Assembly (NCBI RefSeq): GCF_019550915.1
Contig: NZ_JAHWCI010000001.1
Location: 186,001-250,000, forward strand
Reading direction: 5' to 3'
Length of the DNA: 64,000 bases
Origin: Mumia sp. zg.B17
Lineage (GTDB): Bacteria > Actinomycetota > Actinomycetes > Propionibacteriales > Nocardioidaceae
Below, one piece after another: positions 16,404 to 37,344 of the stretch. The notes under the pieces are model-generated. The model worked only from the letters and a program-made list of their open reading frames with translations. It was not told where the DNA came from and did no database searches. The number at the start of each line of letters is the position of its first letter. Within the stretch, counting starts at the first letter, position 1. The translations under genes and the position numbers were made by a program.

Positions 16404-17266
16404 GCCGACCGCTGGTCGCCGCCACGCGAGGCGACCTGGACGCCGCGCTCGCGCCCGCGCGCGCACAGGGACGCTCGCTCGCACTGGTCCCGACGATGGG
16501 GGCGCTGCACGAGGGTCATCTCGCGCTGGTCGCCCGCGCCCGCGAGCTGGCCGACGTGGTCGTCGTGTCGGTCTTCGTCAACCCCACACAGTTCGGGGCG
16601 GGGGAGGACCTGGACCGTTACCCCCGCACCTGGGACGCCGACCTGGCGGCGCTCGCCGGTGCCGGCGTGGACGTCGTCTTTCACCCCGCGGTCAGCGAGA
16701 TGTATCCCGACGGCCCGGAGGCGCGCGGGGTGACGGTCGACGCTGGCCCGCTGGGTGGCGAGCTCGAAGGGGCGGTCCGGCCCACCCACTTCCGTGGCGT
16801 CCTCACGATCGTCACGAAGCTCCTTGGCCTGACCCGCCCCGACGTTGCCGTCTTCGGGGAGAAGGACTACCAGCAGCTGGTCTTGATCCGGCAGGCGACG
16901 CGGACATTGTGCATGCCGGTGCACGTGGTGGGCTGCCCGACGATCCGCGAGGACGACGGGCTCGCCCTCTCGTCGCGCAACCGCTACCTCACCGCCGACG
17001 AGCGCCGGCGCGCGCTCGCCCTGTCCCGGGCGCTGCGTGCCGGTGCGGACGCCGGAGCCGGAGGTGCAGACGCCGTGCTCGACGCGGCCCACACCGTGCT
17101 CGAGGAGACCGGCGACCTGGACGTCGACTACCTCACCCTGCGCTCGCCCGAGCTCGGTGAGCTGGTCGCCGGAAGCGAGGCGCGCCTGCTGGTCGCCGCA
17201 CGGCTCGGCTCCACCCGTCTGATCGACAACATTGCCGTCCGGCTCGGCGCCGGAGAGGATCGCTGA
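16400..17266 (+). CDS. panC: Pantothenate synthetase
   Basis: 288 aa. It joins pantoate and beta-alanine with ATP to give pantothenate. Signatures are [16 protein letters not shown] (the HxGH-type nucleotide-binding loop), [33 protein letters not shown] and the KMSKS-like [10 protein letters not shown]. The start overlaps the upstream stop by 4 bp (ATGA). Its own stop overlaps the panD start (TGATG), giving tight translational coupling. Confidence 0.97.
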
Positions 17267-17688
17267 TGCTGCGGACGATGATGAAGTCCAAGATCCACCG
17301 CGCCACGGTGACACAGGCCGACCTGCACTACGTCGGGTCGGTGACCGTCGACACCGACCTGCTCGAGGCCGCCGACATCCTGCCCGGTGAGCTCGTCCAC
17401 ATCGTCGACATCGACAACGGCGCGCGGCTCGAGACGTACGCGATCGCCGGCGAGCGCGGCTCGGGCGTGATCGGCATCAACGGCGCTGCCGCCCGGCTGG
17501 TGCACCCTGGCGACCTCGTCATCCTGATCGCGTACGCACAGGTGACCGATGCCGAGGCCCGAGACCTCCAGCCCCGCGTGGTGTTCGTCGACACCGAGAA
17601 CCGCATCGTCGGGACCGGTTCCGACCCCGCCGAGCCGGTCCCCGGCACCGCCACCGTGCGCGGAGATCGCACTGCCCCGACCTGCTGA
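17266..17688 (+). CDS. panD: Aspartate 1-decarboxylase proenzyme
   Basis: 140 aa. It makes beta-alanine for PanC. The self-cleavage site Gly24-Ser25 lies in [10 protein letters not shown], where Ser25 becomes the pyruvoyl group. Further family features are [33 protein letters not shown] and [10 protein letters not shown]. Pyruvoyl-dependent PanD has this length in actinobacteria. The usual next gene, coaX, follows only as a decayed copy. A second, decayed panD end is found at 25158-25281. Confidence 0.96.
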
Positions 17689-17699
17689 GTACGCGATTC

Positions 17700-18013
17700 G
17701 TCAGATGGAGCCGTGTCTTCGACGGCGTCGAGCTGACGGCGATCCTGCACGAGATGCCCCAAATGGGCGGCGTGATCTCGGCCGGCATCGAGATCTCGCT
17801 CGAGGCGCTCGCCCGGCGAGGGCCGGAGCTGCGGTCGGTCGAGCTCGTACGGCCTCGGGGTGTGATCGCGAGAACCCCGTCGAGGCCGTCCAGTCCGGGA
17901 TGGTGTTCGGGTTCGCGGGACTCGTCGATGGAAACGTGGCGCGGATGATCCCGGCGCGCGAGCCAGACCTCATGTTCATCGGCCTGCGCACCGTGGCCGA
18001 GCGCACCTCCTGA
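17700..18013 (+). pseudogene. Decayed coaX copy (type III pantothenate kinase)
   Basis: This relic keeps four pieces of CoaX in the right order. A short VFDGVEL piece and ILHEM match the first third. VISAGIEISLEALARRG to LVRPRGVIA matches the middle. QSGMVFGFAGLVDG and EPDLMFIGLRTVA match the end. At least three internal deletions have removed the ATP-binding and pantothenate-binding parts. One base is missing near 17866 compared with the intact gene, so the last two pieces are in another frame. Differences from the intact coaX at 25289 include many synonymous changes, so this is not a recent exact copy. Confidence 0.88.
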
Positions 18014-18043
18014 TGGGCCCGGTCACCGCAGGACGCGCGGCGG

Positions 18044-20368
18044 TCACGCGCGGTGGCTCTCGGCCCCCCAGATGACCCAGGATCGGTCCTCGACCGTCCG
18101 GACGAGCGTGTTCGGGGCGTCGGCCAGCATCGCCGAGGTCGCGGCGAAGCGTCCGACGGAGGCGATCACGACCGGGCACAAGGACATGAGGTAGGAGTCC
18201 CAGACGGCATCGAAGTGCCAGTTCCAATCGATGGTGAGGACCTCCCCGTCGGCCAGGTCGAGCCCGTACTCGTCCGCGTGCAGGCTGACGAACGTCGGGT
18301 CATCGGAGAACACCGCGATGTTCAGGGTCTGGCCCTGCGTCCACACCGTCTCGCGCACGTACTCGATGGCGCGCTTGTACTGCGAGGCGCCCGCGTGCCA
18401 GTCGGGGAAGCCCCCCTGCACGTAGTCCCCGCGGCGCACGTGAACCGCGAGCGTCGGTGAGGACTCGAGGAACCGCCTCACGCGCGCGTTCTCGCCGCTG
18501 AGCTCGTCGGGGCGCAGGTGGGAGTAGCTGAAGCTCTTGCGCAAGGCCTTGCGCCCACGGCCGTCGAACGGGGCGATCATGATCGGGTGGATGAACATCG
18601 GCACGGGCGGAAGGTCACGGGAGATCAGGTCCCGCTGGATTGCGGCCGTCTTCATCATCACCACGGGGAAGTCGGGTTTGGCCTCGACGATCCGCACACC
18701 GGTCGGATAGCCCCACTGGGCGTAGCCCATCAGCTCGTGAAGGCCCAGCTTGATCCACGTCAGCGCGTTGCGGACGGCGTCATCGGGCACGGAGATCTCC
18801 CGGATGGCGGCGACCCACGAGTCGTGGAGCGGTCGTGAGATCAACCGGGTGATGCGGCGCTCCTCAAGCCACGGAGCGAGTTGGGAGGCGACGAACCCGT
18901 TGTGGACTCGGACGTAGGAGTAGTGGAAGTCGTGGAGGTAGATGTTCTTCCCGGCGGAGGCGCAGTCACTGGCGAACCCCGCGATGATCTGGACCTGGTC
19001 CATCATTCCGCCGTTGACCCGGACGACACGTGTCGCGGGGTCGAAGAGGAACGACAGGTCGACCTTGGCCGCCAGCGGCGGCGGCACCGCGCCGTCGGGG
19101 CCCACGACGACCAGGTTCTCGGCGTCGAGGAGCTCCTCCCAGTCCAGCCAAGCGCAACTCGCGACGAGCTCGAGCGGCGACCGTACGGCGACGACCAGCG
19201 CGTCCGTGTGTCCGCGACGGGCCCGTTCCAGATAGAGCGGCCAGGATCCGAGCGCACGGGACACGGTGCCGAGTGAGAGCGTCGTGCTCGCGTCGGCGAC
19301 GCCGTGGGCGTCGAACTCCTCACCTTGGTCGGCGAGGGAACGCGTGATGGTGCCGTCGGCGCCGAACCGTAGGTGCCCCCGGCGATCGACGTAGACGACG
19401 TCGTCGAGGTCGGGAATCCGCCGGGGCAGAGCGACGGCGCACCCCGGGTTCGCGCGCAAGGCCTCCAGGCCCCGCCGGAACAGGTGCGCGGTCTCCCGAG
19501 CGGGTGCGGATCGCTGCTGTCGAGCAGCCGCCGCGACACAGCGCTGTACCTTCTCCGGGTCGCTGCCGGAGGACTGGAGGTAGACGAGTGCGATCAGGTC
19601 GTCCCAGGTGGCATCGGCAGAGCCGCTCAGCCTTTCCGCGACCTCGGCAGCGTCGACGGAAGCTCCTTCGGTCACCCGGGAGACGATCGTGTCGGCGACG
19701 ACCGGCAAGGTGGAGAGAGAGGCTGCGGACCGGTGGAACACCGTGCCCAGGGCGAACGGGCGGCGTCGAGGTTGCGTCGAGCACAGCCGAACGATGTCGC
19801 GCTCGAGGTCGGAGGCCATCGACTTGTCGAACACGAACGCGTCCGGACCGACTGGAAAGTGCCGCAGCGCGACGTCGGAGACCCGGCAGGAGGTCTTCGT
19901 GATGAAGTAGTCGTCCAGCTCGGCGAGGACCCTCGCCTGCTCGGCGGTCGCGACGGTCGGCGCAGGCTCTAGCTTGTCGTCGAGCCAGAGCCGCGACGCG
20001 TGCGAGCGTACGAGGATGATGCGGTCGGCGGGGAAGTGCTCGAGGCAGGTGGCGACGAAGGCGTCGTACCGTCGGCGCCATCGGCGGGACGACTCCATCT
20101 CGCCGATGCTCGCGAGCGCCGTGGTGTTGTCGACGACGAGGTAGTCGGCGTGCGCGTCGGCGAGCTGCGCCGACAGCCGGAGCTGCCGCTTCTTGCCGAA
20201 CCTGACGGGGGAGAACCCCCGGATCACCGGCAGCGCTTTGAACCAGTCGTGCGTGAGCATGTCGATGGTCCCGGCAAACTTGTCGCCGACCGGCAGCAGG
20301 ACAGTGCCTCTCGGGATGACCGGCAGGTCGGCACCGTCCGTCCGCTTGGAAGCTGCCAGCGCACCCAC
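18044..20368 (-). CDS. DUF6270-like domain fused to a GT11-like (alpha-1,2-fucosyltransferase family) domain
   Basis: 774 aa from a GTG at 20368 with AAGGAG 6 nt upstream (an upstream TTG at 20392 has no ribosome site). Residues ~20-220 resemble the DUF6270 protein at 14331: [32 protein letters not shown] and [12 protein letters not shown]. The GSC motif itself is not seen. The C-terminal ~300 residues look like GT11: [15 protein letters not shown] in place of the usual GGLGNQ start, and [11 protein letters not shown] (the HxRRxD-type motif) near residue 645, then [10 protein letters not shown]. The usual terminal SxSWW region is replaced. It is divergent from gmd-fcl, which would make the donor GDP-L-fucose. 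Fucosyl transfer is inferred from motif and context. Confidence 0.72.
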
Positions 20369-20568: not shown

Positions 20569-21600
20569 TTGAGCAAGCGCGCATTCATCACCGGCATTAC
20601 CGGCCAGGACGGGTCGTATCTCGCCGAGCTCCTGCTCGCCAAGGGATACGAGGTGCATGGCCTGATCCGTCGCGCGTCGACCTTCAACACGGCGCGGATC
20701 GACCACCTCTACGTCGATCCCCACGACCCGGACGCCAAGCTCTTCCTCCACTACGGCGATCTCGGTGACGGAGCCCGCCTGGTGACGCTGCTGAGCGAGG
20801 TGGACCCCGACGAGGTCTACAACCTGGCCGCACAGTCCCACGTACGGGTCTCGTTCGACGAGCCGGAGCACACCGCAGACACCACAGGGACCGGCACCAT
20901 CCGGCTGCTGGAGGCCGTGCGCATGGCCGGCATCGACACCCGCTTCTACCAGGCCTCCTCCTCGGAGCTGTACGGCTCGACTCCGCCCCCGCAGAACGAG
21001 GACACGCCGTTCCACCCGCGCTCCCCGTACGCCGCGGCCAAGCTCTACAGCTACTGGATCACCAAGAACTACCGCGAGGCGTACGACATGTACGCGGTGA
21101 ACGGGATCCTGTTCAACCACGAGTCGCCTCGTCGAGGTGAGACCTTTGTGACGCGCAAGATCACCCGGGCCGTCGCCGCGATCAAGGCCGGCAAGCAGGA
21201 GCACCTCTACATGGGCAACCTGGACGCCATCCGCGACTGGGGCTACGCGGCGGAGTACGTCGAGGGGATGTGGCGGATGCTGCAGGTCGACGAGCCCGAC
21301 GACTACGTGCTCGCCACCGGCACCGGCCTGACTGTGCGGGAGTTCCTCGAGATCTCCTTCTCCCACGCCGGGCTGACCTGGACGGACCACGTCCGCTTCG
21401 ACGAGCGCTACCTGCGTCCCTCCGAGGTCGACGCCCTCATCGGTGACGGGTCAAAGGCGGCCGAGAAGCTGGGCTGGAAGCCGACGATCGACGGGTATGC
21501 TCTGGCCAAGCTCATGGTGGATGCAGACATCGAGGCGTTGGAGTGCGCTGGAACACCGTGGATCGACAAGGTCGACCTGCCGTCCTGGAGGATCGCATGA
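20569..21600 (+). CDS. gmd: GDP-mannose 4,6-dehydratase
   Basis: 343 aa, starting at TTG with AAGGA 7 nt upstream. It converts GDP-mannose to GDP-4-keto-6-deoxymannose. Signatures are [18 protein letters not shown] (NADP-binding), [50 protein letters not shown] (Tyr-Lys pair) and [13 protein letters not shown]. Its stop overlaps the fcl ATG (ATGA). manC at 3930 supplies the substrate. Confidence 0.97.
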
Positions 21601-22619
21601 GCAGCGCGACGAGCGAGCGGGCCGCCCTGCAGAGGGTTGTCGACGACAGGGACCAGGTCGCGTACACGCCAGGACCGCTGGACCGCGACGCGACCTTCTA
21701 CGTGGCGGGCCACCGGGGTCTCGTGGGCTCGGCGATCTGGCGCAAGCTCGAGTCGGAGGGGTTCACAAACCTCGTCGGCAGGAGCTCGTCCGAGCTCGAT
21801 CTGCTGGACCGCGACGCGACGTTCAGGGTCATCGACGTGATGAAACCGAGATACCTCGTGCTGGCCGCCGCCAAGGTGGGAGGGATCCTGGCCAATTCCA
21901 CCTACCCCGTGGACTTCCTCAGCGACAACCTGCGGATCCAGGGCAACGTGCTCGATGCGGCGCTCGCCCATGGTGTCGAGCGGGTCCTCTTCCTCGGGTC
22001 GTCGTGCATATACCCCAAGTACGCCGAGCAGCCGATCATCGAGGACGCACTGCTGACCGGCCACCTCGAGCCGACCAACGACGCCTACGCGATCGCGAAG
22101 ATCGCCGGCATCCTTCAGATCCAGGCCGTACGCCGACAATACGGACTACCGTGGATCTCGGCGATGCCGACGAACTTGTACGGCCCGAACGACAACTTCT
22201 CGCCGACCGGCTCCCACGTGCTGCCCGCCCTGATCCGGCGCTACGACGAGGCCGTCCAGGCAGGGCGGGACACCGTGACCAACTGGGGCACGGGCAACCC
22301 GCGGCGCGAGTTCCTCCACTCCGACGACATGGCCGACGCCTGCCTCCACCTGCTCGAGCACTATGACGGGCCTCAGCAGGTCAACGTCGGCACGGGATCG
22401 GACGTCACGATCCGCGAGATCGCCGACACGATCGCGGAGGTCGTCGGGTTCGAGGGCACGACGGAGTGGGACACCACCAAGCCCGACGGGACCCCTCAGA
22501 AGCTGCTCGACGTCTCCAAGCTCGCGGCGGCCGGCTGGACCTCGAAGATCGGTCTTCAGGAAGGCCTTGAACGTACCGTTGCGTGGTATCGGGAGCACGT
22601 CCTCGACCTCAGGCGCTGA
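21597..22619 (+). CDS. fcl: GDP-L-fucose synthase
   Basis: 340 aa. It epimerises and reduces the Gmd product to GDP-L-fucose. The N-terminus has [17 protein letters not shown] (NADP-binding), then [37 protein letters not shown] (catalytic Tyr-Lys) and [19 protein letters not shown]. The first ~35 residues before the Rossmann motif are longer than usual. An internal start is possible, but the ATGA overlap with gmd supports this one. The pair gmd-fcl forms a complete GDP-mannose to GDP-fucose path. Confidence 0.96.
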
Positions 22620-22672: not shown

Positions 22673-24907
22673 TCACCCCTTGCTGCGGGTGTAGAGCGCC
22701 TCGCCCCAGCCCTTGGACGTCATCACGGCATCGCGGAAGACGAGACCTGCCTCGGCGAGCAGGTTGGTGACCTCGAGGAAGGTGCAACCTCCCTCGTAGA
22801 GGGGTTCTGGCGCGACCTCGGCGAGGACGGCGTCGACCTGGGTCAGGAGGTCCGGCGCGCCCTGGAGGACCTTGAACTCTGCTCCCTGGACGTCGAGCAG
22901 GATGACGTTGTAATCGGCGGCCTCGGGACGCTCGGAGACGATGTCGTCGAGCCGCTCGGTCACCAGCTCCACCTTCTCCTCGAAGGTGACGCTCGGGTAC
23001 TCGGTGGCGTGGCGTCCCGCCTCGAACATGCTCGAGGAAGCACCGCCGTTCGACGAGACGTGGAAGGTCACCGCATCGCCGGTAGTGTCGGACAGCAGCG
23101 CCTGCCGGATGACGTGAGGACGATGGGGATCGAGCCGCTGGCGCACGCGTTCGGCGAGGGCGGGGATCGCCTCGACGTAGAGCAGCGGGCCCGTCGTCCG
23201 TGCTTGGTATTCCGGATACTCCTGGCCGGAGTTGGCGCCGACATGGATGAGTCCCCGGATCGGGACGCCGAACCTGGCGCAGCCGTCGATGACGTTCAGC
23301 TCCGTCCCCGGCGAGGTCGTCACGGGAGCGGGCGGCATGGCCTCGGTGGGAGGCGCGGGTCGCGTTGCCAGAGGCCGGGTCGAGCCGGATGACGCTGAGC
23401 CCCTCCGTGCCTTCCGCCTGAGCCGACGCCTCACGCCACGCGCGATCCGGCGGGATGCGCGCGTGACACGGGTGGCCTGCGGCGTCGGGGCGGAGGGGAT
23501 CGCCGGGCCGTCTCCGACGACGGCGAACACCCGCAGGTCGGCGAGGTGCAGCGCGGTGTTGAGGGGGTTGATGATCCGGACGTAGCGCGCGGCGATGTCC
23601 GGGACCTCGAGCGATGCCTCCTGCCAGCTGCCACCGGGGAGCTTGCCGTCCTTGAAGAGGGGGAAGACCCGCTTTGTCCCCCGAGGCCCGGTGAGCTCGA
23701 CGAAGATGTGGCGTGCGCGGTCCTGACGCATGTCGCGGCGGTTGGTCAGCTCGATGCGGCGCACCGTCTTCGCAGTGCCGAGGTCCACGCGGATCGACTG
23801 TCCCGGACCGAAGCCGGTGTGGAAGAAGTAGTTGTCCCGTGGCTCAATGGTCCCGATCCGGCTGGTCCGGTCGTACGCCGAGCTCAGCGTGTAGGGCCGG
23901 CCTGCCGCGACCTCGACCAGCTCGCCAAGACTTCCGGGCTTGCGTCCTCCGAGCCTGCTGAGCGTCTGGAGGCTCCGCATGGTGAGAGCGAGGACCGACT
24001 TCAGCTCGTCCTCGGTGGCGGTCGTCGTGGACTCGTACTCCTCGTGGTAGCGCTGGGCGTCCTCGAGCATCTTGACGCGCGACTCGAGCGGCCGCTGGTA
24101 GTCGCACCAGGCGTCGGAGAGGAACATCGGCGGGACGCGCGGCACGTTCCGGCCCACGTCGAGCGGGTGCGGGAGCAGCGGGGTGCCGGCTCTCGGGGTG
24201 AACCGGTCGTTCCGGACCAGGGTGAGCTCGAGGACCTGGGGGATCCGGATGTCGGTCCCGGGTACCTCAAAGTCGCCGCAGCAGTTGTTGGGGTGGGCGT
24301 GCACCGTGGTGAAGCTCTTCGCGAGCTTCCTGAAGAACGGCGCGATGGCTCCGCTGAGGATCGGCTCGTCGAGCATCTTGCCGAGGTTGTGGACCTCGAG
24401 GACGATCATCCGGAACCGGGCGAGCGTCTCGTCGGAGGTGCCGAGGAGGTTGCGGTACTCGGCACCCTCGATGTCGATCTGCAGGAGCAGGTCGCCCTCC
24501 GAGCCGTGCTCGTCGACCCAGTCGTCCAGGCTGATGTTGTCGGTTCCGGGCACGACGTCCAGCCACTTCTTGGCGAACGTCTGCTTGCCCTCGCGCAGCG
24601 GGGTCACGAACTCGTCGACGTCGCACGAGAAGTCGACCATGTGGGCTGCGATGCCGTAGTTGTCGGTCAGGTAGTCCTCGAAGTACTTGATCCGGTTCAC
24701 GCCCGGCGAGAAGCAGGCGGCGATCCCGTCGAGATCGTCCGGCACGAGATAGGCGCCGTCGATCTCGCCGCCGACTCGGATCAGCGGTGTCGCCGACGCC
24801 TTCGGCTTGAGGATCTCGAAGACCTCGAGGATCTCGCTGGTGGATGCGGGCCGTGGGGCGAGCTTCCTGTCGAGCTCGACGCCGAAGAAGCTTGCAGTCG
24901 TGACCAT
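22673..24907 (-). CDS. FkbM-like methyltransferase - discoidin-like domain - FkbM methyltransferase
   Basis: 744 aa in three parts. Residues ~40-260 look like a divergent FkbM-type domain (LLLQIDIEGAEYRNLLG near 140, then VLEVHNLG). Residues ~335-470 read like an F5/8 type C (discoidin) carbohydrate-binding fold (IRVDLGTAKTVRRIELTNRR, ARYVRIINPLNTALHLADL). A basic Arg/Ala/Pro linker follows. About 535-744 form a classic FkbM methyltransferase (LIHVGANSGQEYPEYQ, LLYVEAIPALAERV, ILLDVQGAEFKVLQGAPDLL). It probably O-methylates a surface sugar and may hold the glycan through the middle domain. AAGGG lies before the ATG. It converges on fcl. Confidence 0.8.
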   Translation of the reverse strand: MVTTASFFGVELDRKLAPRPASTSEILEVFEILKPKASATPLIRVGGEIDGAYLVPDDLDGIAACFSPGVNRIKYFEDYLTDNYGIAAHMVDFSCDVDEFVTPLREGKQTFAKKWLDVVPGTDNISLDDWVDEHGSEGDLLLQIDIEGAEYRNLLGTSDETLARFRMIVLEVHNLGKMLDEPILSGAIAPFFRKLAKSFTTVHAHPNNCCGDFEVPGTDIRIPQVLELTLVRNDRFTPRAGTPLLPHPLDVGRNVPRVPPMFLSDAWCDYQRPLESRVKMLEDAQRYHEEYESTTTATEDELKSVLALTMRSLQTLSRLGGRKPGSLGELVEVAAGRPYTLSSAYDRTSRIGTIEPRDNYFFHTGFGPGQSIRVDLGTAKTVRRIELTNRRDMRQDRARHIFVELTGPRGTKRVFPLFKDGKLPGGSWQEASLEVPDIAARYVRIINPLNTALHLADLRVFAVVGDGPAIPSAPTPQATRVTRASRRIARGVRRRLRRKARRGSASSGSTRPLATRPAPPTEAMPPAPVTTSPGTELNVIDGCARFGVPIRGLIHVGANSGQEYPEYQARTTGPLLYVEAIPALAERVRQRLDPHRPHVIRQALLSDTTGDAVTFHVSSNGGASSSMFEAGRHATEYPSVTFEEKVELVTERLDDIVSERPEAADYNVILLDVQGAEFKVLQGAPDLLTQVDAVLAEVAPEPLYEGGCTFLEVTNLLAEAGLVFRDAVMTSKGWGEALYTRSKG

Positions 24908-25064
24908 CAGTGTCCCTTCCGAGGTCTGCTGACCCTAACCAATGGCCGACATTCGCCGCAAGGATTCCGGCGCCGAATCCTCAGGTGTGGTGAACGCCAG
25001 GAGGTCGACGGTGATCAGTGAGCAGGGACGCTCGTCCCGCCTGCCCGGATGATGTCGCGCGCGG

Positions 25065-25157
25065 TCAGTGAGCCGCCTCGTACGCGGCGCGCACGTCCTC
25101 CGAGACGCGACCACGCTCGGACACCTCGTCGCCGTTCTCGCGGGCCTACTCGCGCAC
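25065..25157 (-). pseudogene. Inverted C-terminal relic of lsr2
   Basis: Read on the minus strand, this stretch gives VRE, a TAG stop, then ARENGDEVSERGRVSEDV and RAAYEAAH followed by TGA. That is the DNA-binding end of Lsr2. The intact copy at 27656 has IREWARENGYEVSERGRV and ends AAFEAAH. The stop replaces the conserved Trp codon (TGG to TAG). Upstream residues and the dimerisation domain are absent. It abuts the panD relic directly, in opposite orientation to both panD and the living lsr2. Confidence 0.85.
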
Positions 25158-25281
25158 GTCCGACGACACCGGCAACCGCATCGTCGGCATCGGGTCCGAA
25201 CCCGCAGAGCCGGTGCCCGGCAGCGGCACGGTGCGCGGCGATGTCCTCGCCGACGCAAATGCCGGGCGCGCTGCGCCATGA
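25158..25281 (+). pseudogene. C-terminal relic of panD
   Basis: The frame DTGNRIVGIGSEPAEPVP then GSGTVRGDV matches the end of PanD ([26 protein letters not shown]), with different synonymous codons. About 100 upstream codons, including the Gly-Ser cleavage site, are gone. It ends at TGA 25279-25281, 7 bp before the intact coaX start, which is where panD is expected to sit. It is therefore the right-hand counterpart of the decayed coaX at 17700. Confidence 0.87.
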
Positions 25282-25288
25282 TGAGCAC

Positions 25289-26059
25289 GTGAGTCTCCTC
25301 TGCCTGGACGTCCGCAACAACCACACGGTCGTCGGCGCGTTCGACGGCGACCGTCTGGTGGGGAGCTGGCGGGTCGCCTCCCTCGACACGCGGACCGCGG
25401 ACGAGTGGCAGCTCCTGCTCCGCGGGCTGCTCGAGCAGTGCGACGCCGGCCCTGTGGAGGCCGTGGCGCTGTCCTGCACGGTCCCGGCGGTGCTGCACGA
25501 GATGCGCCTGCTGCTGGAGCGGCACTACGACGACTGCGTGGTGTCCATCGTGGAGCCCGGGACGCGCACCGGGGTGGCGATCCTGATGGACAACCCCCGC
25601 GAGGTCGGAGCCGACAGGATCGTCAACGCCGCGGCCGTGGGAGTGTTGTATGCCGGTCGGCCGTGCGTCGTCGTCGACGTCGGGACCGCCACCACCTTCG
25701 ACGTGGTCGACGCTCAGGGACGCTACGTCGGCGGCGCGATCTCGGCTGGCATCGAGATCTCGCTCGAGGCGCTGGCCCGCCGCGGCGCACAGCTGCGGTC
25801 GGTCGAGCTGGTGCGCCCGCGCGGCGTGATCGCGAAGAACACCGTCGAGGCGATCCAGTCGGGGATGGTGTTCGGGTTTGCCGGTCTCGTCGACGGCATC
25901 GTGACGCGGATGATCCGCGCGCTCGGCGGCGACGACGTTGCCGTGGTGGCCACCGGGAGGAACGCCGACGTGGTTCTCGGCGAGTGCACCACGGTCACCG
26001 CGCACGAACCCGACCTGACCCTGATCGGGCTGCGGATCGTCGCGTCCCGGAACGCCTGA
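25289..26059 (+). CDS. coaX: Type III pantothenate kinase
   Basis: 256 aa. It phosphorylates pantothenate, the first step of CoA synthesis. Features are the N-terminal phosphate-loop region CLDVRNNHTVVGAFDGD, the GADRIVNAAA motif with its catalytic Asp, VVDVGTATTFDVV and GGAISAGIEISLEAL. The usual Thr in DVxNT is Asn here (Asn11), the one notable deviation. GTG 25289 fits the family N-terminus. Its normal operon partner panD is 7.6 kb away, with only a panD relic directly upstream. Which promoter drives it is unclear. Confidence 0.93.
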   Translation: MSLLCLDVRNNHTVVGAFDGDRLVGSWRVASLDTRTADEWQLLLRGLLEQCDAGPVEAVALSCTVPAVLHEMRLLLERHYDDCVVSIVEPGTRTGVAILMDNPREVGADRIVNAAAVGVLYAGRPCVVVDVGTATTFDVVDAQGRYVGGAISAGIEISLEALARRGAQLRSVELVRPRGVIAKNTVEAIQSGMVFGFAGLVDGIVTRMIRALGGDDVAVVATGRNADVVLGECTTVTAHEPDLTLIGLRIVASRNA

Positions 26060-26094: not shown

Positions 26095-27600
26095 ATGACC
26101 GACGCCGCCCCCACCGTGCCCGCAGACGACCTCCCGGAGCAGATGCGGGTCCGGCGCGAGAAGCGTCAGCGAATGCTCGACGCGGGCGTACCGCCGTACC
26201 CGCTGAACGTGCCCTACACGCACTCGATCCGGGAGATCGTGGCTGCCCACGACGCCGAGGCACTGGGCGCCGACGCGCACACGGGCGAGCGCGTCGCCAC
26301 CGCCGGTCGGGTGATCTTCCTGCGCAACACAGGCAAGCTCTGCTTCGTCCGTCTGCGCGAGGGGGACGGCTCTGAGATCCAGGGCATGATATCGCTCGCC
26401 GACGTCGGCGCGGAGTCGCTGGCGGACTTCAAAGCGCTCGTCGACATCGGCGACCACCTCGCCGTCGAGGGTGAGGTCGTCACCAGCCGGCGCGGCGAGC
26501 TGTCGGTCCAGGTGAGCGTCTGGCAGATCGCCGCGAAGGCGCTGCGCCCGCTGCCCAACGAGCACAACCCGCTCTCGGAGGAGCTGCGCGCGACCCAGCG
26601 CTACGTCGACCTCGTGGTTCGTCCGCAAGCGCGCGAGGTCGTCCGCGCGAAGGCGGCGATCCTGCGGTCGCTGCGGCGCACTCTGGACGAGAAGGGATTC
26701 GTCGAGGTCGACACCCCGGTGCTGCAGTTCACCAACGGCGGTGCCGCCGCTCGTCCTTTTGCCACCCACATGAATGCGTTCGACCAGGAGATGCTTCTAC
26801 GCATCGCTCTGGAGCTGCACCTGAAGCGCGCTCTGGTTGGCGGTGTGGACCGCGTTTACGAGATCGCGAAGACTTTCCGCAACGAGGGCGTGGACAACAC
26901 CCACAACGTGGAGTTCCTGATGCTCGAGGCATATCAGGCCTACGGCGACTACCACACGATGGCCGACCTTCTCCGCGACCTCGTCCGCGACGCCGCCCGG
27001 GCGCTCGGGCGGACGGTGGTGCCCGGCCGTGACGGCAGCGACATCGATCTCGAGGCGGACTGGCGCTGGGCCAGCATCCACGAGCTGGTCGCCGAGGCCG
27101 TCGGCGCCGACGTCACGCACGACACCGACGCCGATACGCTGCGGGCGCTCGCGGCCACGCACGAGGTGGCGCTGCGCGACGGCTGGGGCGCCGGCGAGAT
27201 CGTGCTCGAGCTCTTCGAGAAGCTCGTCGAGCACACGTTGATCCAGCCCACCTTCGTCGCCGACTATCCGCAGTCGGTACGGCCGCTGGCCAAGCCCCAC
27301 CGCAGCAAGCCGGGGCTCGCCGAGGCGTTCGACCTGATCATCAACGGCGTCGAGCTCGCCCCTGCGTACTCCGAGCTCAACGACCCGGTGCTCCAGCGCA
27401 AGCTGCTCACCGAGCAGGCCGCCCTGGCAGCGGCCGGGGATCCCGAGGCGATGGACGTCGACGAGGACTTCCTGCGGGCGCTGGAGTTCGGGATGCCGCC
27501 GGCCGGCGGGATGGGTCTGGGCGTCGACCGGCTGGTGATGCTTCTGATGGGCGTCGGAATTCGCGAGGCAATTCTGTTTCCCGCTGCACGCGAAGGCTGA
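26095..27600 (+). CDS. lysS: Lysyl-tRNA synthetase (class II)
   Basis: 501 aa. It charges tRNA-Lys. The N-terminal OB fold (about residues 65-170) includes VATAGRVIFLRNTGKLCFV. Class II motifs follow: motif 2 around FRNEGVDNTHNVEFLMLEAY and motif 3 GLGVDRLVMLLMG at the C-terminus. KPHRSKPGLAEAFDLIING and ELAPAYSELNDP are LysRS-typical. It lacks the MprF-like membrane extension of the LysX type. Confidence 0.97.
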   Translation: MTDAAPTVPADDLPEQMRVRREKRQRMLDAGVPPYPLNVPYTHSIREIVAAHDAEALGADAHTGERVATAGRVIFLRNTGKLCFVRLREGDGSEIQGMISLADVGAESLADFKALVDIGDHLAVEGEVVTSRRGELSVQVSVWQIAAKALRPLPNEHNPLSEELRATQRYVDLVVRPQAREVVRAKAAILRSLRRTLDEKGFVEVDTPVLQFTNGGAAARPFATHMNAFDQEMLLRIALELHLKRALVGGVDRVYEIAKTFRNEGVDNTHNVEFLMLEAYQAYGDYHTMADLLRDLVRDAARALGRTVVPGRDGSDIDLEADWRWASIHELVAEAVGADVTHDTDADTLRALAATHEVALRDGWGAGEIVLELFEKLVEHTLIQPTFVADYPQSVRPLAKPHRSKPGLAEAFDLIINGVELAPAYSELNDPVLQRKLLTEQAALAAAGDPEAMDVDEDFLRALEFGMPPAGGMGLGVDRLVMLLMGVGIREAILFPAAREG

Positions 27601-27655: not shown

Positions 27656-27994
27656 ATGGCACAGAAGATTCAAGTGATACTCATCGACGACATCGACGGC
27701 GGAGATGCCGACGAGACGGTTTCCTTCGGTCTCGACGGAGTGATGTACGAAATCGATCTCTCCGCCAAGAATGCACAGAAGCTGCGGGACGCTTTTGCTC
27801 CGTATGTCGCGGAGGCGCGCAAGTCCCGCGGGCGCGGTCGGTCGTCAGCGGGCGGCTCGCGCCGTCGCGCGACCAGCGCGGGCGGTTCCTCGGCGTCGCA
27901 GATCCGTGAGTGGGCGCGCGAGAACGGCTACGAGGTCTCGGAGCGGGGACGCGTCAGTGGAGAGGTCCGCGCAGCATTCGAGGCTGCGCACTGA
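27656..27994 (+). CDS. lsr2: Lsr2 nucleoid-associated protein (xenogeneic silencer family)
   Basis: 112 aa. Lsr2 bridges AT-rich DNA and silences acquired genes in actinobacteria. The N-terminal dimerisation half is QKIQVILIDDIDGGDADETV to EIDLSAKNAQKLRDAF. A basic Gly/Ser/Arg linker follows. The C-terminal DNA-binding helices carry IREWARENGYEVSERGRV, where RGR is the minor-groove hook. It sits in the expected place after lysS, but clpC, the usual next gene, is 11 kb away behind a polysaccharide island. An inverted relic of a second lsr2 lies at 25065-25157. Confidence 0.96.
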   Translation: MAQKIQVILIDDIDGGDADETVSFGLDGVMYEIDLSAKNAQKLRDAFAPYVAEARKSRGRGRSSAGGSRRRATSAGGSSASQIREWARENGYEVSERGRVSGEVRAAFEAAH

Positions 27995-28047: not shown

Positions 28048-29355
28048 TCAGGGTCGCCCTAGCGCTTCATATGTCCATCCAGCAGCACGCCAGACGTGCG
28101 GATCCAGGGCGTTACGCCCATCGAAGACGCGCGGATGCCGGACCTGTGCAGCGAGCCGGACCGGATCCAGCGCGACGTACTCACGCCATTCGGTGAGCAG
28201 CATGACGAGGTCAGCGTCCTGGACCGCCGAGTCGACAGTTGTCACGATCTGAAGATCGGGCTGGGTAGCTCGTGCCGTCGCAACCGCAGCAGGGTCGGTC
28301 ACGCGCACCCGGGCGCCGCGCGCTTGCAGGCGTACGGCCACGTCGAGTGCCGGTGAGTCGCGGACGTCATCACTGTCAGGCTTGAACGCGGCGCCGAGGA
28401 CGGCGATCCGTGCGCCGTCAAGATTGCCCCCGAGAAGGGCAGCAGCCGACGAGACGGCACGGTCACGGCGACGCATGTTGATGGCGTCGACGTCTCGCAG
28501 GAAGCCGACGGAGTCGGTGGCACCCAGCTCCTCGGCGCGAGCACGAAACGCCCGAATGTCCTTCGGGAGGCAGCCACCCCCGAAACCGAGTCCCGCGTTC
28601 AGGAAACGGCGCCCGATCCGGGCATCATGACCGATAGCGTCGGCGAGGGCAGTGACATCGGCCCCAGCCACGTCGCAGACGTCCGCCATAGCATTGATGA
28701 AGGAGATTTTCGTGGCGAGGAATGCGTTCGCGGCGACCTTCACCAACTCGGCGGTGGCCAGATCGGTGACGAGCCGGGGAACTCCGGCGTCGAGGGCGGG
28801 CGCGTAGACCTCATCGATCGTGGCGACTGCGGATGGCGACTGTCCGTCGACGCCGTACACGATCCGGTCAGGCTTAAGGGTGTCGGCTACGGCGAATCCT
28901 TCACGCAGGAACTCGGGGTTCCAGACGAGGCTAGCCGTCGGCTCGACAGTGGCGAGGTGGGAGGCGAGTCGCTGAGCGGTACCCACCGGGACCGTCGACT
29001 TGCCAACGATGGTGTCGCCCGGCTTGACGACCTCCAGGAGGCTGGCGAAGGCTGCCTGAACGTGGGAGAGGTCAGCGGCCAGCTCACCCGTCCGCTGTGG
29101 CGTGCCGACGCAGATGAAATGAACCGTGGCATCGGCCGCCTCTGCCGGTTTCGTCGTGAAGGTGAGGCGACCCGATGCAAGGGCATCTGACAACAGCTTG
29201 GGGAAACTCGGTTCGTGGAAGGGCGGCTCGCCGGCGGCGAGCTGCGCCACCTTTGGCTCGTCAACATCGATCGCGACGACATCGTGGCCGATGGACGCCA
29301 TGCACGCGGCATGGACAGCGCCGAGGTAGCCGCAGCCGATTACAGAGATCTTCAC
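28048..29355 (-). CDS. ugd: UDP-glucose/GDP-mannose 6-dehydrogenase family protein (probable UDP-glucose 6-dehydrogenase)
   Basis: 435 aa. It oxidises UDP-glucose to UDP-glucuronate for polysaccharide synthesis. Motifs are ISVIGCGYLGAVHAACMA (NAD-binding), FICVGTP, GKSTVPVGTAQRL, NPEFLREGFA, ELVKVAANAFLATKISFINA and GLGFGGGCLPKDI with the catalytic Cys. The GTG start at 29355 has a minus-strand TACCCT 6 nt upstream, so it is leaderless. The GDP-mannose specificity of relatives cannot be ruled out from sequence alone, but LGFGGGCLPKD and length favour Ugd. Confidence 0.9.
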   Translation of the reverse strand: MKISVIGCGYLGAVHAACMASIGHDVVAIDVDEPKVAQLAAGEPPFHEPSFPKLLSDALASGRLTFTTKPAEAADATVHFICVGTPQRTGELAADLSHVQAAFASLLEVVKPGDTIVGKSTVPVGTAQRLASHLATVEPTASLVWNPEFLREGFAVADTLKPDRIVYGVDGQSPSAVATIDEVYAPALDAGVPRLVTDLATAELVKVAANAFLATKISFINAMADVCDVAGADVTALADAIGHDARIGRRFLNAGLGFGGGCLPKDIRAFRARAEELGATDSVGFLRDVDAINMRRRDRAVSSAAALLGGNLDGARIAVLGAAFKPDSDDVRDSPALDVAVRLQARGARVRVTDPAAVATARATQPDLQIVTTVDSAVQDADLVMLLTEWREYVALDPVRLAAQVRHPRVFDGRNALDPHVWRAAGWTYEALGRP

Positions 29356-29361
29356 GCCGGA

Positions 29362-29367
29362 AGGGTA
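29362..29367 (-). promoter_or_regulatory. -10 hexamer TACCCT, leaderless ugd promoter
   Basis: Minus-strand TACCCT, 6 nt, then the GTG start of ugd at 29355. Confidence 0.6.
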
Positions 29368-29477
29368 GCAACCACAGATCGCGCCCGGGCGGGACCCAGG
29401 CGAGCGTGCGCGCCGTATCATGCACTGGGCGGCCGCCACGGCCGCTCGAGGACCCGACGCGGTTGATGGAGGTCAAC

Positions 29478-30674
29478 GTGAAGCTCGTGATGACCCTGAT
29501 GGTGAGGGACGAGGCTGACATCGTGGCAGCGATGGTCGAGCACCATCTCGCGCAGGGTGTGGACCTGATCATCGCCACGGATAACGCCTCGGTTGACGGA
29601 ACCAGGGAGATCCTGTCGGAGTACGCGGCACACGGCGTGGTCGAGCTGCACGACGACCCGCGCCATGCCAAGCAGCAGTCTGAGGTCGTCACAGCGATGG
29701 CGCGGCGTGCTTATGAGGTTCACGATGCAACGTGGGTCCTTAATGCGGACGCCGACGAGTTCTGGCTGCCCGTCGATCGAAGCCTCTCGCTGCGTGACGC
29801 GTTCGAGCGCATCCCACCAAGCCTCGGGGCCTTCGCTGTTCCTGTGACGAACCTGACGGGGACTCCGGCCCGTCGCGGACCAGGGCTACGCCGATTGGTG
29901 TGGAGAGATGAGCGCGACGCTGCCGACCTCATGGATCTTGCAGGGCTCCACGCGCAGCCGACGCCGAACGCCGTGCACGTCGGCTCGTCGGACGTCACGG
30001 TCGCCCAAGGCAATCACTTCGTCAGTATTCCGAGCAACGGCGCGCCTGATGAGGCATTCCGGCTCGAGGTGCTGCATCTTCCGTGGAGGTCGCTCGATCA
30101 GCACCGGGCAAAGGTTGAGATGTCGGGCCGTGCCTATGAGGCTAGCCCGACGCTGCGGCCGAGCCCGAACCACCACGGAATGCGGGACTACCGGCGTCTG
30201 CAGGCGGGGTTTGTCGAGGAGTTCTATCTCTATCGACACCCCGTCGATCCGCAGGGGGACCCAGCCTTCTCCCGCGACACTTCGCTCCTCGAGGCGCTGA
30301 GCGGAGTGCTCGCCGACGGAAGGGCTATAGTGCCCTCCCGCCTAGAGCAGGCGCTCGACGACGTCTCGGATGAGGAGTTCGGACCAGACGAAGTCAAGGC
30401 GAGCGCACAGGTGGCGCGGATCATCATCCCTCTGGAACGGGTTCACCTTGCTGTCAGCGAGCGTGCGCGCGACGACCTCCGCGCGTCGGAGGCACGGGCG
30501 AAGAAGGCGGCTGCGGCAGCGGCTCAGCGCGAGAAGGAGCTGAAGAAGCGGCTGAGGGCGACGAAGCAGAATCTTGCGCAGGCCCGCAGTGAGCTGGCTG
30601 CTGTCCGAGAGAGCAGGAGCTACCGCGTCGCGCGTGCTGTCGCGCGGCCGTTGCAACGCCTACGTCGTCGCTAG
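29478..30674 (+). CDS. Glycosyltransferase family 2-like protein with C-terminal coiled coil
   Basis: 398 aa. The N-terminus LVMTLMVRDEADIVAAMVEH and IIATDNASVDGTREIL, then VLNADADEFWLP (DxD metal site), mark the Glyco_tranf_2_4 type seen in surface polysaccharide loci. Residues ~320-398 are Ala/Lys/Arg/Glu-rich and predict a coiled coil, ending in SYRVARAVARPLQRLRRR, a tail frequent in such transferases. GTG 29478 follows GGAGG by 5 nt; ATG 29466 lies in the same frame. It converges on the gene at 30908 across 233 bp in which I see nothing recognisable. Confidence 0.82.
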   Translation: MKLVMTLMVRDEADIVAAMVEHHLAQGVDLIIATDNASVDGTREILSEYAAHGVVELHDDPRHAKQQSEVVTAMARRAYEVHDATWVLNADADEFWLPVDRSLSLRDAFERIPPSLGAFAVPVTNLTGTPARRGPGLRRLVWRDERDAADLMDLAGLHAQPTPNAVHVGSSDVTVAQGNHFVSIPSNGAPDEAFRLEVLHLPWRSLDQHRAKVEMSGRAYEASPTLRPSPNHHGMRDYRRLQAGFVEEFYLYRHPVDPQGDPAFSRDTSLLEALSGVLADGRAIVPSRLEQALDDVSDEEFGPDEVKASAQVARIIIPLERVHLAVSERARDDLRASEARAKKAAAAAAQREKELKKRLRATKQNLAQARSELAAVRESRSYRVARAVARPLQRLRRR

Positions 30675-30907
30675 GTCCGCCGCGCGCAAGACGAGACGTT
30701 GGCACCGCGGCTCCGTTCGCGCATAGTCTTCCGAGATCGACAGGGAGACTGCGCAGTGACGTGGCCGCGAGGAGTACTTCCTCCCGACCGCCGGGAATGA
30801 GTTCTTCCTCAAGCTCAGCCCTGCGTCGACCAGCCCGTTGGCTCCACGTGAGCGATCGTTCCGTCGCGCTGACGCCGAGCGGGCGGCGCCCGGAGTGCCT
30901 CGATTCG

Positions 30908-32536
30908 TCACCGTGCAGGCTTCTTCCCCGCTCCCGCGGAGAACACCTCGCACACGGCGTCGATGGCGTCAGACAGCTTCCCACCGAGGTCGATGCGTTG
31001 CTCGCCGGGCTCGCGGCCCTTCGATCGGAGGGCAGTCGCCTCGCTGAGGGCGATGTCGAGTGCGGCCGCAAGCGCCCCGGCGGCCGGATGGGTTGAGACG
31101 GTCAGGCCGTCGAACCAGGCATCGCGATAGTCGCCGAACGGATTGGTGACGGTCGGGATCCCAGCCATCGGGAGTTCGATCGCCAGGTGCCCCGGGTGAG
31201 GGCTCGACATCAGCGCGAGTCCGAGGTCGGTCTGGGCGAGGACCTCGTAGTACTGCTCGTACGTCAACTTCCCGACCGGATCGGCCAAGACGCGCGGTCC
31301 CAGGTCGACACCGTCAAGCTCCTCGCCGGCGAGCGTGACGTGAACCGTGACATCGTCGGGCAGTCTCTCCGCCCAGATCCGGATGGCTTGAAGGCCGAGC
31401 GCGAACATGTTCCGTGGCTTGGATGGGCGTGCATAGTAGAGCAGACGCACAGCGCCCTCTGAGCCCGGCTTCCAGTTCGCGGCGGCCCGCTGGAGCGGCT
31501 CCACGTCGAGCTCCGGTGCGAATACGTAGCGCGGATCGATCGGTCGTCCGGTCTGGTCGCTGACGTAGCGGGCGAGGGGCAGGGAGTTCACGAGCATCGC
31601 GAAGTTCTCGTCGTAGGTCCCGGCTGCCTTGAGCTGGAGGTCACCTCCAGGGTAGAAGCTCGGTTCCCAGTCCTGGACAAGGTAGACGCACCGATCAGCT
31701 CGGACACGGCCCGCGCGCACGAGCTCGGCGACCGCGTACGCAGTCGTCCAGAACGTAGCGATCCACACGTCGTCGGGGTGGTGACCGTGTTGGTCCGGCC
31801 AGTTGGGTGCACTCAACCGGAGTTCCTCGGCGACTGCCGGCGACGAGGACTCGCTGACGACGCGGCGCAACGTCTCGAGCGAGGCAGCCGGTTCGCCAGG
31901 GAGGTCCGTGCACACGACGACGCGGAGCGGTAGGCCGAGACGGACAGCGAACCCTGCGGCCGCCACCACCGCCGTGCGGATGCCCGCGAATACCGCAGTC
32001 GGGCCGAAGGTCTGCAGCACCAGGACGACGTGTGGCCGGGAACCGTCGCAGACGGTGGCGCTGAGCGTCGCAGATGCCGCGGTCGTCAGGTCAGCGCCGG
32101 TGTGGAGACGTTGCGGCGCTGGAGGTCGCAGCTCGCGGACCTCCCGCAGCAGCCGGTCAGCGGATCTCTCGAGGGCGGGTAACCGTTGACCGAGCACGAC
32201 GGTCGTGCGAGCTGACGCCTTCTCAACCCGGGAGGTGTGTTCGCCGAGAGTGGACAGCCGACGCTGAATCGCAGCGGTCCTGCCCCGCTGTCGGCGCGTA
32301 TGGCGGTCGATGCGCCCGACTATTCGCGCTTGGCGGCGAACGTCGCGTTGGATCGCGGCCGCGGTCCGGACGAGTGCAGCTGCCATCAACGTGACGACGA
32401 CAAGCAGCATGGCCGAGGCGCCGGCCACCGCGAGCAGCCCAGTTGACACGGGTGAGGCACCCGCGAGGAGCCCGATGAGGGCACCTGCGACGCCTGCGAC
32501 GACAACCAGACCACCGACTACCCACGGTTTGTGCAT
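30908..32536 (-). CDS. WsaF-like rhamnosyltransferase-type glycosyltransferase, membrane anchored
   Basis: 542 aa. Two N-terminal membrane helices (about residues 5-55) are followed by an Arg-rich probable coiled coil to ~140. The GT-B part has VVLVLQTFGPTAVFAGI, YLVQDWEPSFYPGG, RLLYYARPSKPRNMFALG, LGLALMSSPHPGHLAIELPM and GIPTVTNPFGDY, which match the WsaF family. The probable activity is rhamnosyl or similar transfer on a surface glycan. ATG 32536 is used, with GGAGAGG upstream. The longer frame would start at TTG 32566. It lies 89 bp after the large GT upstream on the same strand. Confidence 0.8.
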   Translation of the reverse strand: MHKPWVVGGLVVVAGVAGALIGLLAGASPVSTGLLAVAGASAMLLVVVTLMAAALVRTAAAIQRDVRRQARIVGRIDRHTRRQRGRTAAIQRRLSTLGEHTSRVEKASARTTVVLGQRLPALERSADRLLREVRELRPPAPQRLHTGADLTTAASATLSATVCDGSRPHVVLVLQTFGPTAVFAGIRTAVVAAAGFAVRLGLPLRVVVCTDLPGEPAASLETLRRVVSESSSPAVAEELRLSAPNWPDQHGHHPDDVWIATFWTTAYAVAELVRAGRVRADRCVYLVQDWEPSFYPGGDLQLKAAGTYDENFAMLVNSLPLARYVSDQTGRPIDPRYVFAPELDVEPLQRAAANWKPGSEGAVRLLYYARPSKPRNMFALGLQAIRIWAERLPDDVTVHVTLAGEELDGVDLGPRVLADPVGKLTYEQYYEVLAQTDLGLALMSSPHPGHLAIELPMAGIPTVTNPFGDYRDAWFDGLTVSTHPAAGALAAALDIALSEATALRSKGREPGEQRIDLGGKLSDAIDAVCEVFSAGAGKKPAR

Positions 32537-32625
32537 CTGCAGTGACCTCTCCAAGCGACGCACCAACTCTAGTCATGCTGACCGGCTGACCGCGACGGTC
32601 GGGCCCGCACGGTTTCACATGATGC

Positions 32626-35600
32626 TCAGCGCAGCGTGTGCGCGACGCCGCGAAGATCGAGAACGTCGGCGAGCAAGACCCGTGCGCGTTCGACGAAGGA
32701 GTGTTCCTGCGCGATGCGTGCTGCGTTCCGGGCGATCTCCGCGTCGCTCGCCCACCCGTCCCCCGCGGGGTCAAGAAGGGAGGCGAGCTCCTCGACGGAT
32801 CGATAGACCTGGACAGAGGGGCCGAACAGGTCTTCCAGCCCGGGAACCGCGTCGGACACAACCCGTGCCCCGCTCGCCGCCGCATCGAAGAGGCGATTGG
32901 AGAAGAACCCGAGTCGCGCCATGTCGTCCCAGTGATCGTTCAGGACGATCCGAGCTCCTCGGTACGCGTCAGGGACCAGAATGTTGTCGAGCTGCTCCGC
33001 CCGGACATGGCGCATGTCGATGAACTGTTCCCAACCGTTCCCGAAGATGGCAAGGTCGGCGCCCGCCCGAATGGCGTCACGGACGATTGGGCGAAACACA
33101 TTGCGTGTGCGCCCGACGAACAGCACCTCGAGCCCGTCCATGACTGGCCCATTGGTCGTGAATCGGTCGGTGTTGGTCGCCTGGAGCAGGGTACGGACCT
33201 CGCGGCCTGAACGAGCCGTCGCAATCTCGGCCCACGGCGCCCCGGCGGAGTAGACCAGGTCGAACGAGTCTCCGAGCTCGTCATCCTGAACGAGGTCCGG
33301 GTGACTGATGACCCAGAGCAGGTTGGTGGCACCGGGCTGGGCCGCAACGCGCTCAAGCCCGCGAAGTGTGAGCGTCACGTCGTCGAGGTAGTCCGACGGC
33401 GGCCGCTGGTGGGCATGCCGCCGGTCGACGACAACCTCCTGTCCCCAGGATCGCAATGCACGCGCGAGGTCGTCGGCGAAGGCCACGTCACCCCAGCCGT
33501 TTCCCCTCGGGCCTCCGGGGGCGGCGATCTTGATCGCCCACCGCAGACGTGGCAGTCCGGCTGCGTTGCCGGCGGACACGGACGTCCGGAGACGTCGAAG
33601 GATTGGAGTCACTGCGGTGCGGCAGCTTGTTTTCGGGACCGCGCCGGTGAGCGGGGCGGCAACGACCTCGAAGCCTGCCGAGGTCCACGGTTCCTTCTCC
33701 GGTCCTGGAAGCCGTGCGCCCCAGCGCGCGAGCAGGAGAAGGCGGTTGGATCCGTTTCGCGTGGACCGGCCCAGGGATTTGCTCTCGTGGTGGGCGACCT
33801 GGGAGTCCGTCACGGTCACGAACACCTTGTCGTTGATTCCTCCGAGACGCAGGCACAGGTCGACGTCCTCCATGCCGTTGACGAAGTGGGGGTCGAACCC
33901 GCGCGCGGCGGCTACGGTGTCGGCGCGCATTGCCAGGCAGGCGGCCGTGACGGCATGAAACCGGAGCTTTTGCGCCGAGGGCACGTCCTCGCGGGGGTGC
34001 GACGTCAGGAAGTGGCTCGGCACCAGGTGGGGACCGTGAAAGACGGTCCCGGCGGTCTGGACGGAATCGTCCGGGTAGAGGAGCAACGGCTGGGCGCCGC
34101 GGACCGTGGGGTCGTCGAGTGCGCTGACGAGTGGCTCGAGCCAACCCTCACGAGGGTCCGTGTCGTTGTTCAGGAACACGACACGTGCCCCGGTCGAGGC
34201 TGCGAAAGCGAGGTTCGAGCCAGTGGCGAAATTCGTGTTGCACGCGACCCGGCGCACCTGGACTCGCCTATCGGCTGCGGTGAGCGCTGTGAGGATACGG
34301 CTCACGTTGCGGCTCGATCCATTGTCGAGAACGACGACTTCCATGTCGCCTGAGCCGGTATTGAGCGCGGTGGCGACCGCGGTGGCGGTGTACCGCCAGT
34401 CGCGGAACGTGGGAACGAGAAGCGAAACCCGCGACTCGATCCGTTCGGTCGCCCGTTCCCTCAGCAAGTCCCAGTCGATGATCCGTTCCGCGCGGATGAC
34501 GTGTTCGTACGACGTCATGACGCCGGGTGGGAGCGGTGCCGAGCTGGCGTGTGTGTCTCGCGCCGCAATGAAAGGGACGAAGTTGCGTGGGAACGAACTC
34601 CGAAGCAGGTGATCCCAACCGTACTGATCACCGGCCTCGACGCGGAAGGGAACCTCTTGCAGCGCGCTCCTGCTGACGAGCATGCCGGCCAGCCCGCGAG
34701 CCGGGCGCCAGATCAAAGTCTCCTGCGGACCGAGTTCGGTGCGGACGAGATCTGACTCTGCCTCGACAACGGCTCCGTAGGCCCCCGAGCCGTCGTTCAC
34801 GGCCGCGAGCAGGCTGTCGAGGAAGCGTGGTGACCACGTCTCGTGCGGCCGCCAGAACGCGATCCGCTCTTCTTCCGCGGAGGCGACGAGGGCGTTGGCG
34901 CGGTCTGCCCATGCATCACCGTCGACGCCGACCGGCAAGACCCGAGGGTCCGCCGCGGCAGCCTCGGCCACTGCCGGCGGGACTGGGGCGCCCGAGTCGA
35001 CCGCGACCCGCAGCACCCAGTCGCGGTACCGCTGCGACTCCAGCGAGGCAAGCCGGCCAGCGGTTGTACTGTCCCACTCGCGACCGTCGGAGAGGACGCC
35101 GACCGTCGGCCCTCGGGTGGGGCCATCGGCAGGATTTCCGGTGACGATCGACCAGCGTGCCCAGGTTCGAGCCTGGCGCGTGGCGCTCGACTGGTCCGCC
35201 GCCATCTGTGCGACCTCGGCGAGCGTATCGCGCAACTTGTCGAGCGTGACGGCCTGAACGTCGCGGGACTGGTCGGGAACGGTCAGTGTGTCGGCACCGG
35301 CGTTCTGAAAATAGTGCCCCAGCGGGCCGCCGGGATGCGCGCCGGCCTCGGGGTGGCCGGCGAGGTAAGCCGGGGCGTCGAAGTGTGGACCCGCGGCACC
35401 CAGGGTCTGGCCGGTTCGCAGAAAGTGGGCGAACGCCATCCCGCCACCGAACGATGAGCTTCGCCTGTACCAGGAGCGCTCGAACAGCGGGTTGGGCGAC
35501 AGGTCCGACGGCTCGCCGACCTCGAGGAAGTGCCAGATCGCCGCCGTCTGGCTGTTGAACGTTCGACCGGCCTGTTGCTCGTAGTAGAGGCGATCGAAGA

Positions 35601-36111: not shown

Positions 36112-36190
36112 CTGTCTCCCTGACTACATGAGCTGCTTCCCGGGGAAGGATAGACGTCTCGTGTGCGATCGCTGCAGGGACGCCAGCGAG

Positions 36191-37186: not shown

Positions 37187-37344
37187 GTAGCCTCCCGGAT
37201 GACGGCGCTTGCCGTAGCGTTTCGGCCAGGGTATCCACCTACGCGGTCACATGACTGTAGTGGTGTGAACCCACAACAAGCCTCGAAGGGTAATGACAGA
37301 GACCACGTGCGTACCCCCGGTGCGCTCCTGCAGGAGTGAACGAC

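Follow-up and report, generated by a model that had tools for sequence, protein, structure and literature searches.

The core gene lsr2 of Actinobacteria lies in the order lysS-lsr2-clpC and encodes a protein with a dimerization domain (PF11774) and a DNA-binding domain (PF23359). At polysaccharide loci, homology-facilitated illegitimate recombination and the exchange of gene cassettes leave behind remnants of core genes. Homologs of xenogeneic silencers are also known to be borne on islands, plasmids and phages, reviewed in PMC7074111.

Here we describe a decayed 3'-end of lsr2 located at the edge of a glycan gene cluster, island A, within a window of 64,000 nucleotides, the whole stretch of DNA that was analysed. 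The original prediction for this site was of a dead, inverted C-terminal lsr2 fragment that touches a relic of panD and has its key Trp codon changed to TAG, and a regulatory role was proposed for its loss.

The panD-coaX-lysS-lsr2-clpC region in the genus

Much of the gene order panD-coaX-lysS-lsr2-clpC recurs across Actinobacteria, and a literature search on lsr2-lysS-clpC synteny yielded nothing. Six genomes were sampled for the genus and in three of the genus-mates, G001, G004 and G005, panC-panD-coaX-lysS-lsr2 is uninterrupted. In other genera of the family (G010 and G027) clpC follows lsr2 within about 0.2–0.3 kb. Within the genus this gap is filled with differing glycan genes. They span about 5 kb in G004, about 11 kb in G002 as well as in the host, and about 21 kb and 23 kb in G005 and G003, respectively, so that lsr2 forms the natural boundary of a variable glycan locus. 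The coaX-lysS gap is a further site of insertion in G002 and G003, whose inserts of about 4.1 kb (L058/L059) and 2.3 kb (L062), respectively, carry differing glycan-type genes. For G001, the lsr2 region was matched on two contigs, C1 (26825) and C8 (59050) (L054, L056), reflecting a large duplication or else contigs that overlap in the assembly.

In the host, the order reads panC, panD, dead coaX, island A, dead lsr2 tail (minus strand), dead panD tail (plus strand) and coaX, and continues to the right of the joint with lysS, lsr2, a second glycan locus and clpC (Table 1). Parts of the panD-coaX block consequently occur twice, as the dead coaX at 17689–18037 and as the panD tail at 25158. Island A itself comprises a GT11-like gene (minus), gmd and fcl (both plus) and an FkbM gene (minus).

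Table 1. Features of the window in the vicinity of the lsr2 relic
Feature	Coordinates	Strand	Remarks
Intact panD	17266..17688	+	End of panC-panD block
Decayed coaX copy	17689..18037	+	Left edge of island A, after intact panD; 5' half gone, frameshift
Large GT11-like protein, probable fucosyltransferase	18044..20368	-	Island A; weak C-terminal match below Pfam cut-off; HVRRGDY motif
gmd, GDP-mannose 4,6-dehydratase	20569..21600	+	Island A
fcl-type epimerase/reductase	21597..22619	+	Island A; Pfam Epimerase and place after gmd
744-aa FkbM-methyltransferase-domain protein	22673..24907	-	Island A; directly downstream of lsr2 relic, same orientation
lsr2 3'-end relic	25051..25163	-	About codons 80–112; TAG for Trp86; about 14 bases past stop matching downstream of G005 lsr2
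panD 3'-end relic	25158..25250	+	From about codon 109; directly before intact coaX; few-base overlap with start of lsr2 homology
Intact coaX (type III pantothenate kinase)	25289..26059	+	Second copy of panD-coaX block
Intact lysS	26095..27600	+	
Intact resident lsr2	27656..27994	+	Dimerization and DNA-binding domains
Resident variable glycan locus	28048..39021	.	lsr2 to clpC; UDP-sugar dehydrogenase, glycosyltransferases, methyltransferase

Several of the gene products in the region merit comment in their own right. The GT11-like protein has 774–782 aa, and its C-terminal GT11-like piece had no counterpart among the other 57 relatives searched, nor among the remaining 292 order genomes covered by the search; the protein may therefore represent a new fucosyltransferase architecture. 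The FkbM protein combines FkbM methyltransferase stretches with an F5/8 type C-like part and went unmatched in the five remaining genomes of the genus. Beyond the second glycan locus, the start of clpC carries a 135-base direct repeat (39278–39412 and 39503–39637, 76%) which is probably a duplicated Clp N-terminal motif, Pfam Clp_N matching it twice.

A decayed and inverted 3'-end of lsr2

The minus strand of 25065–25157 translates to VRE*ARENGDEVSERGRVSEDVRAAYEAAH*, while the resident Lsr2 protein ends in IREWARENGYEVSERGRVSGEVRAAFEAAH*; TAG at 25148–25146 stands in the relic for the conserved Trp86 codon. When the window was compared with itself, 25060–25165 matched the resident lsr2 DNA at 76% (E 7.6e-15), and a protein search of the whole genome yielded just two lsr2-like places, the intact gene and the relic (E 8e-9, one TAG). 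The relic peptide, with X at the stop, scored 42.6 bits against PF23359 (Lsr2_DNA-bd), for which the Pfam cut-off is 26.9 bits. The translation, the DNA match and the Pfam score together confirm the predicted inverted fragment, with its TAG for Trp and its contact with the panD relic.

Similarity beyond chance had been set beforehand as the test of this assignment, and the claim stands: the ungapped BLOSUM62 score of the peptide is 118, compared with at most 30 in 153 other segments of the window and at most 29 in 400 shuffles. High G+C DNA does generate spurious reading frames, but a chance resemblance is refuted by these controls and by a Pfam score above cut-off. An assembly chimera would be expected to leave undecayed copies identical to host genes, whereas the relics differ from those genes by about 15–24%, and we regard an artefact of this kind as extremely improbable.

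Only the C-terminal 31–33 codons, about 100 bases, are kept and the reading frame is interrupted by the TAG. No dimerization domain (PF11774) is detectable in the relic, its homology starting around codon 80, at the point of transition to panD. Showing both significant homology and a disabling change, the relic is an lsr2 pseudogene fragment. It encodes nothing now, and is a young, non-functional scar or passenger pseudogene, well kept and ordinary in kind.

The relic lies between two divergently oriented genes, the FkbM gene on the minus strand and coaX on the plus strand. With coaX-lysS-lsr2 now severed from panC-panD, transcription of these genes must either start within the relic-filled stretch of about 380 bases (24908–25288) or enter from outside it, and that stretch showed no sigma-70-like site. 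Placement in the intergenic stretch that most likely drives coaX-lysS-lsr2 speaks for the idea that the relic was kept for a function, whether as a small ORF, an antisense RNA, a terminator, or a promoter of either neighbouring gene. We consider that very improbable, given the in-frame stop, the absence from the relic region of any sigma-70-like promoter or terminator-like site above background in a simple scan, RNA folding that is no better than for shuffled sequences (z -0.12), and the lack of a separate copy of the relic in the relatives.

The joint with panD and the edges of island A

Homology to lsr2 gives way to homology to panD within a few shared bases, at about 25157–25165. In the self-comparison of the window, the panD relic (about 25158–25242) matched the intact gene (17583–17667) at 84% in direct orientation. 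At the opposite edge of island A, the 3'-end of the dead coaX and about 20 bases past its stop are still recognisable, the copy (about 17766–18013) matching intact coaX at 85% over 195 bases. On this left side the island begins some 20 bases beyond the coaX stop, a position that corresponds to the coaX-lysS gap. The panD-tail and coaX copies, about 15% apart from their intact counterparts, are in direct orientation, unlike the lsr2 tail, which runs opposite to the resident gene. The repeats flanking island A are tails of core genes and not att sites; no tRNA target occurs in the window, and no integrase or transposase was seen among the Pfam-scanned genes in and around the island, which are a part of the window's genes.

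It had also been proposed that the junction saw at least one inversion. Inversion is indeed implied when the joint is compared with the ancestral order, but a separate inversion event is a weaker conclusion because the same joint could be produced by end-joining of two fragments or by template switching.

Source of the relic

Alignment with lsr2 sequences of relatives placed the core lsr2 of genus-mate G005 closest to the relic. Over 96 coding bases the relic is identical to G005 lsr2 at 84, to the next best sequence, from another genus, at 76, and to the resident lsr2 at 72. The similarity extends past the stop codon, where 12 of 14 bases match G005 and 5 match the resident, and the homology to G005 stops 14 bases beyond the lsr2 stop. 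Sites that decide between the two alleles favour G005 by 15 to 3 (p 0.0075), and G005 was nearest to the relic in 98% of site bootstraps, or 94.5% when coding sites alone were used. G005 carries a single lsr2, a core gene in the order panD-coaX-lysS-lsr2.

Two other candidate sources were considered. The resident lsr2, as a simple source, was ruled out by the deciding sites and by its lower identity. A phage or plasmid source was rejected too: phage and plasmid Lsr2 proteins have the domain in common with the relic, but reach just 57–69% at the protein level among the best listed matches, the core lsr2 of G005 being closer.

Differences between the relic and G005 fall at codon positions 1, 2 and 3 in the numbers 2, 2 and 8. 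Such a predominance of third positions indicates that most of the divergence probably arose while the gene was functional, and that its death was recent. Of the five residues at which the relic departs from G005, two (Ala and His) are also seen in other intact lsr2 copies.

The relic is, therefore, the 3'-end of a core-type lsr2 that is closer to the genus-mate than to the resident gene. The actual donor may belong to a species outside those sampled, and the informative stretch of about 110 bases is short enough to limit certainty on this point. Since it does not derive from the resident allele, the relic was supplied either by incoming DNA or by an earlier allele of the locus. In this respect the original prediction, that incoming DNA or an earlier rearrangement had carried its own lsr2, holds for a non-resident allele; it does not hold for a second silencer belonging to the island.

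A probable exchange of a glycan cassette with a sister lineage

We favour, with a probability of roughly 60%, the interpretation that the relic is the scar of a DNA exchange with a sister lineage, in which a glycan cassette brought along an lsr2 flank that became inverted and joined to panD-coaX. In the sister lineage, a gmd-fcl glycan cassette would have been located directly downstream of lsr2, inside the variable lsr2-clpC locus. It would have moved together with the last 110 bases or so of the donor lsr2 flank, and have become established the other way round, with the coaX stop to its left and panD-coaX to its right. One side may have been secured by homologous pairing in shared core genes and the other by illegitimate joining at a short overlap, as occurs in homology-facilitated illegitimate recombination. 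A joint with few overlapping bases is observed, while a homologous crossover is locatable only with the parents at hand. The relic shares its strand with the FkbM gene and precedes it, an order which fits a cassette that had followed lsr2 in the donor; their orientation and adjacency are what suggest such a link. No donor genome with lsr2 followed by this cassette was found: the genus genomes lacked the FkbM protein, the relatives and order genomes searched lacked the GT11-like piece, and plasmids gave distant partial matches only.

A local origin is less probable, though it deserves serious consideration. An older lsr2 allele of the host itself might have undergone partial duplication and inversion along with panD-coaX, by a fold-back or template switch, the resident lsr2 being replaced later from another species. 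The lsr2 and panD tails at the joint both derive from a single core block of 3 kb, the outcome expected if the template switch took place within one locus, and the resident LysS and Lsr2 proteins lean towards G002 whereas panC, panD and coaX lean towards G001/G005. However, the additional replacement is needed to account for the relic's greater distance from the resident (72/96) than from G005 (84/96), and rearrangement alone leaves unexplained how a fucose cassette came to separate the duplicated blocks. Neighbouring genes are of little help here: in a nearest-relative contrast of 32 genes the G001/G005 pair and the G002/G004 pair lay at about the same distance from the host, so that mosaic ancestry is unreadable from them.

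The proposal that the island brought a complete second lsr2 as silencer, whose death unlocked the glycan genes, found no support, and we judge it quite unlikely. Silencer homologs on mobile elements do exist (PMC7074111), and Lsr2 proteins of phages and plasmids contain the same domain. Against this, the relic retains just the end of the gene, has no dimerization domain and meets panD in a sharp joint; its best match, including the bases past the stop, is a core allele and not one of the more distant phage or plasmid copies; and the intact resident lsr2, 2.5 kb away, is able to act in trans. Moreover, when lsr2 neighbourhoods were searched for gmd/fcl, with flanks of about 0.5 to 20 kb, the two were adjacent nowhere in the genus, in several members of the family, or at 38 further loci. 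The relic gives no ground for inferring a changed silencing of the glycan genes.

More speculatively, cassettes are present in several gaps of the core block, and in this genus DUF2520-panC-panD-coaX-lysS-lsr2-clpC could be a hub for the interspecies exchange of wall-glycan cassettes, with core genes serving as homology handles; the inverted lsr2 tail would then be the direct scar of one transfer that took a cassette out of the lsr2-clpC gap and into the one on the coaX side. This broader scheme we put forward tentatively, at somewhat less than even odds.

The value of the relic lies in providing both evidence for, and the orientation of, a gene-cassette exchange. It suggests that the fucose-type glycan block arrived with a piece of the core lsr2 locus of another species, or else that an older allele was displaced, and, given more genomes of the genus, it could help in reconstructing how surface-glycan loci move through housekeeping flanks in Actinobacteria with no evident integrase.

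Comparison with known systems

With the core lsr2 of Actinobacteria the relic agrees in its DNA-binding domain, in the end of the gene and in the bases past the stop; it differs in consisting of the last codons only, with a stop for Trp86 and no dimerization domain, and in being inverted and detached from lysS. Like the silencer homologs of islands, plasmids and phages, it is an lsr2-related sequence at the edge of seemingly acquired genes, but it is a fragment of a core allele, fused to core panD sequence, rather than an accessory gene. In layout it resembles the remnants left at polysaccharide loci by illegitimate recombination and cassette exchange: duplicated and partly dead core flanks surround a glycan cassette and one joint has a few-base overlap, whereas here one of the flanks is inverted and the donor and mechanism are those that we infer.
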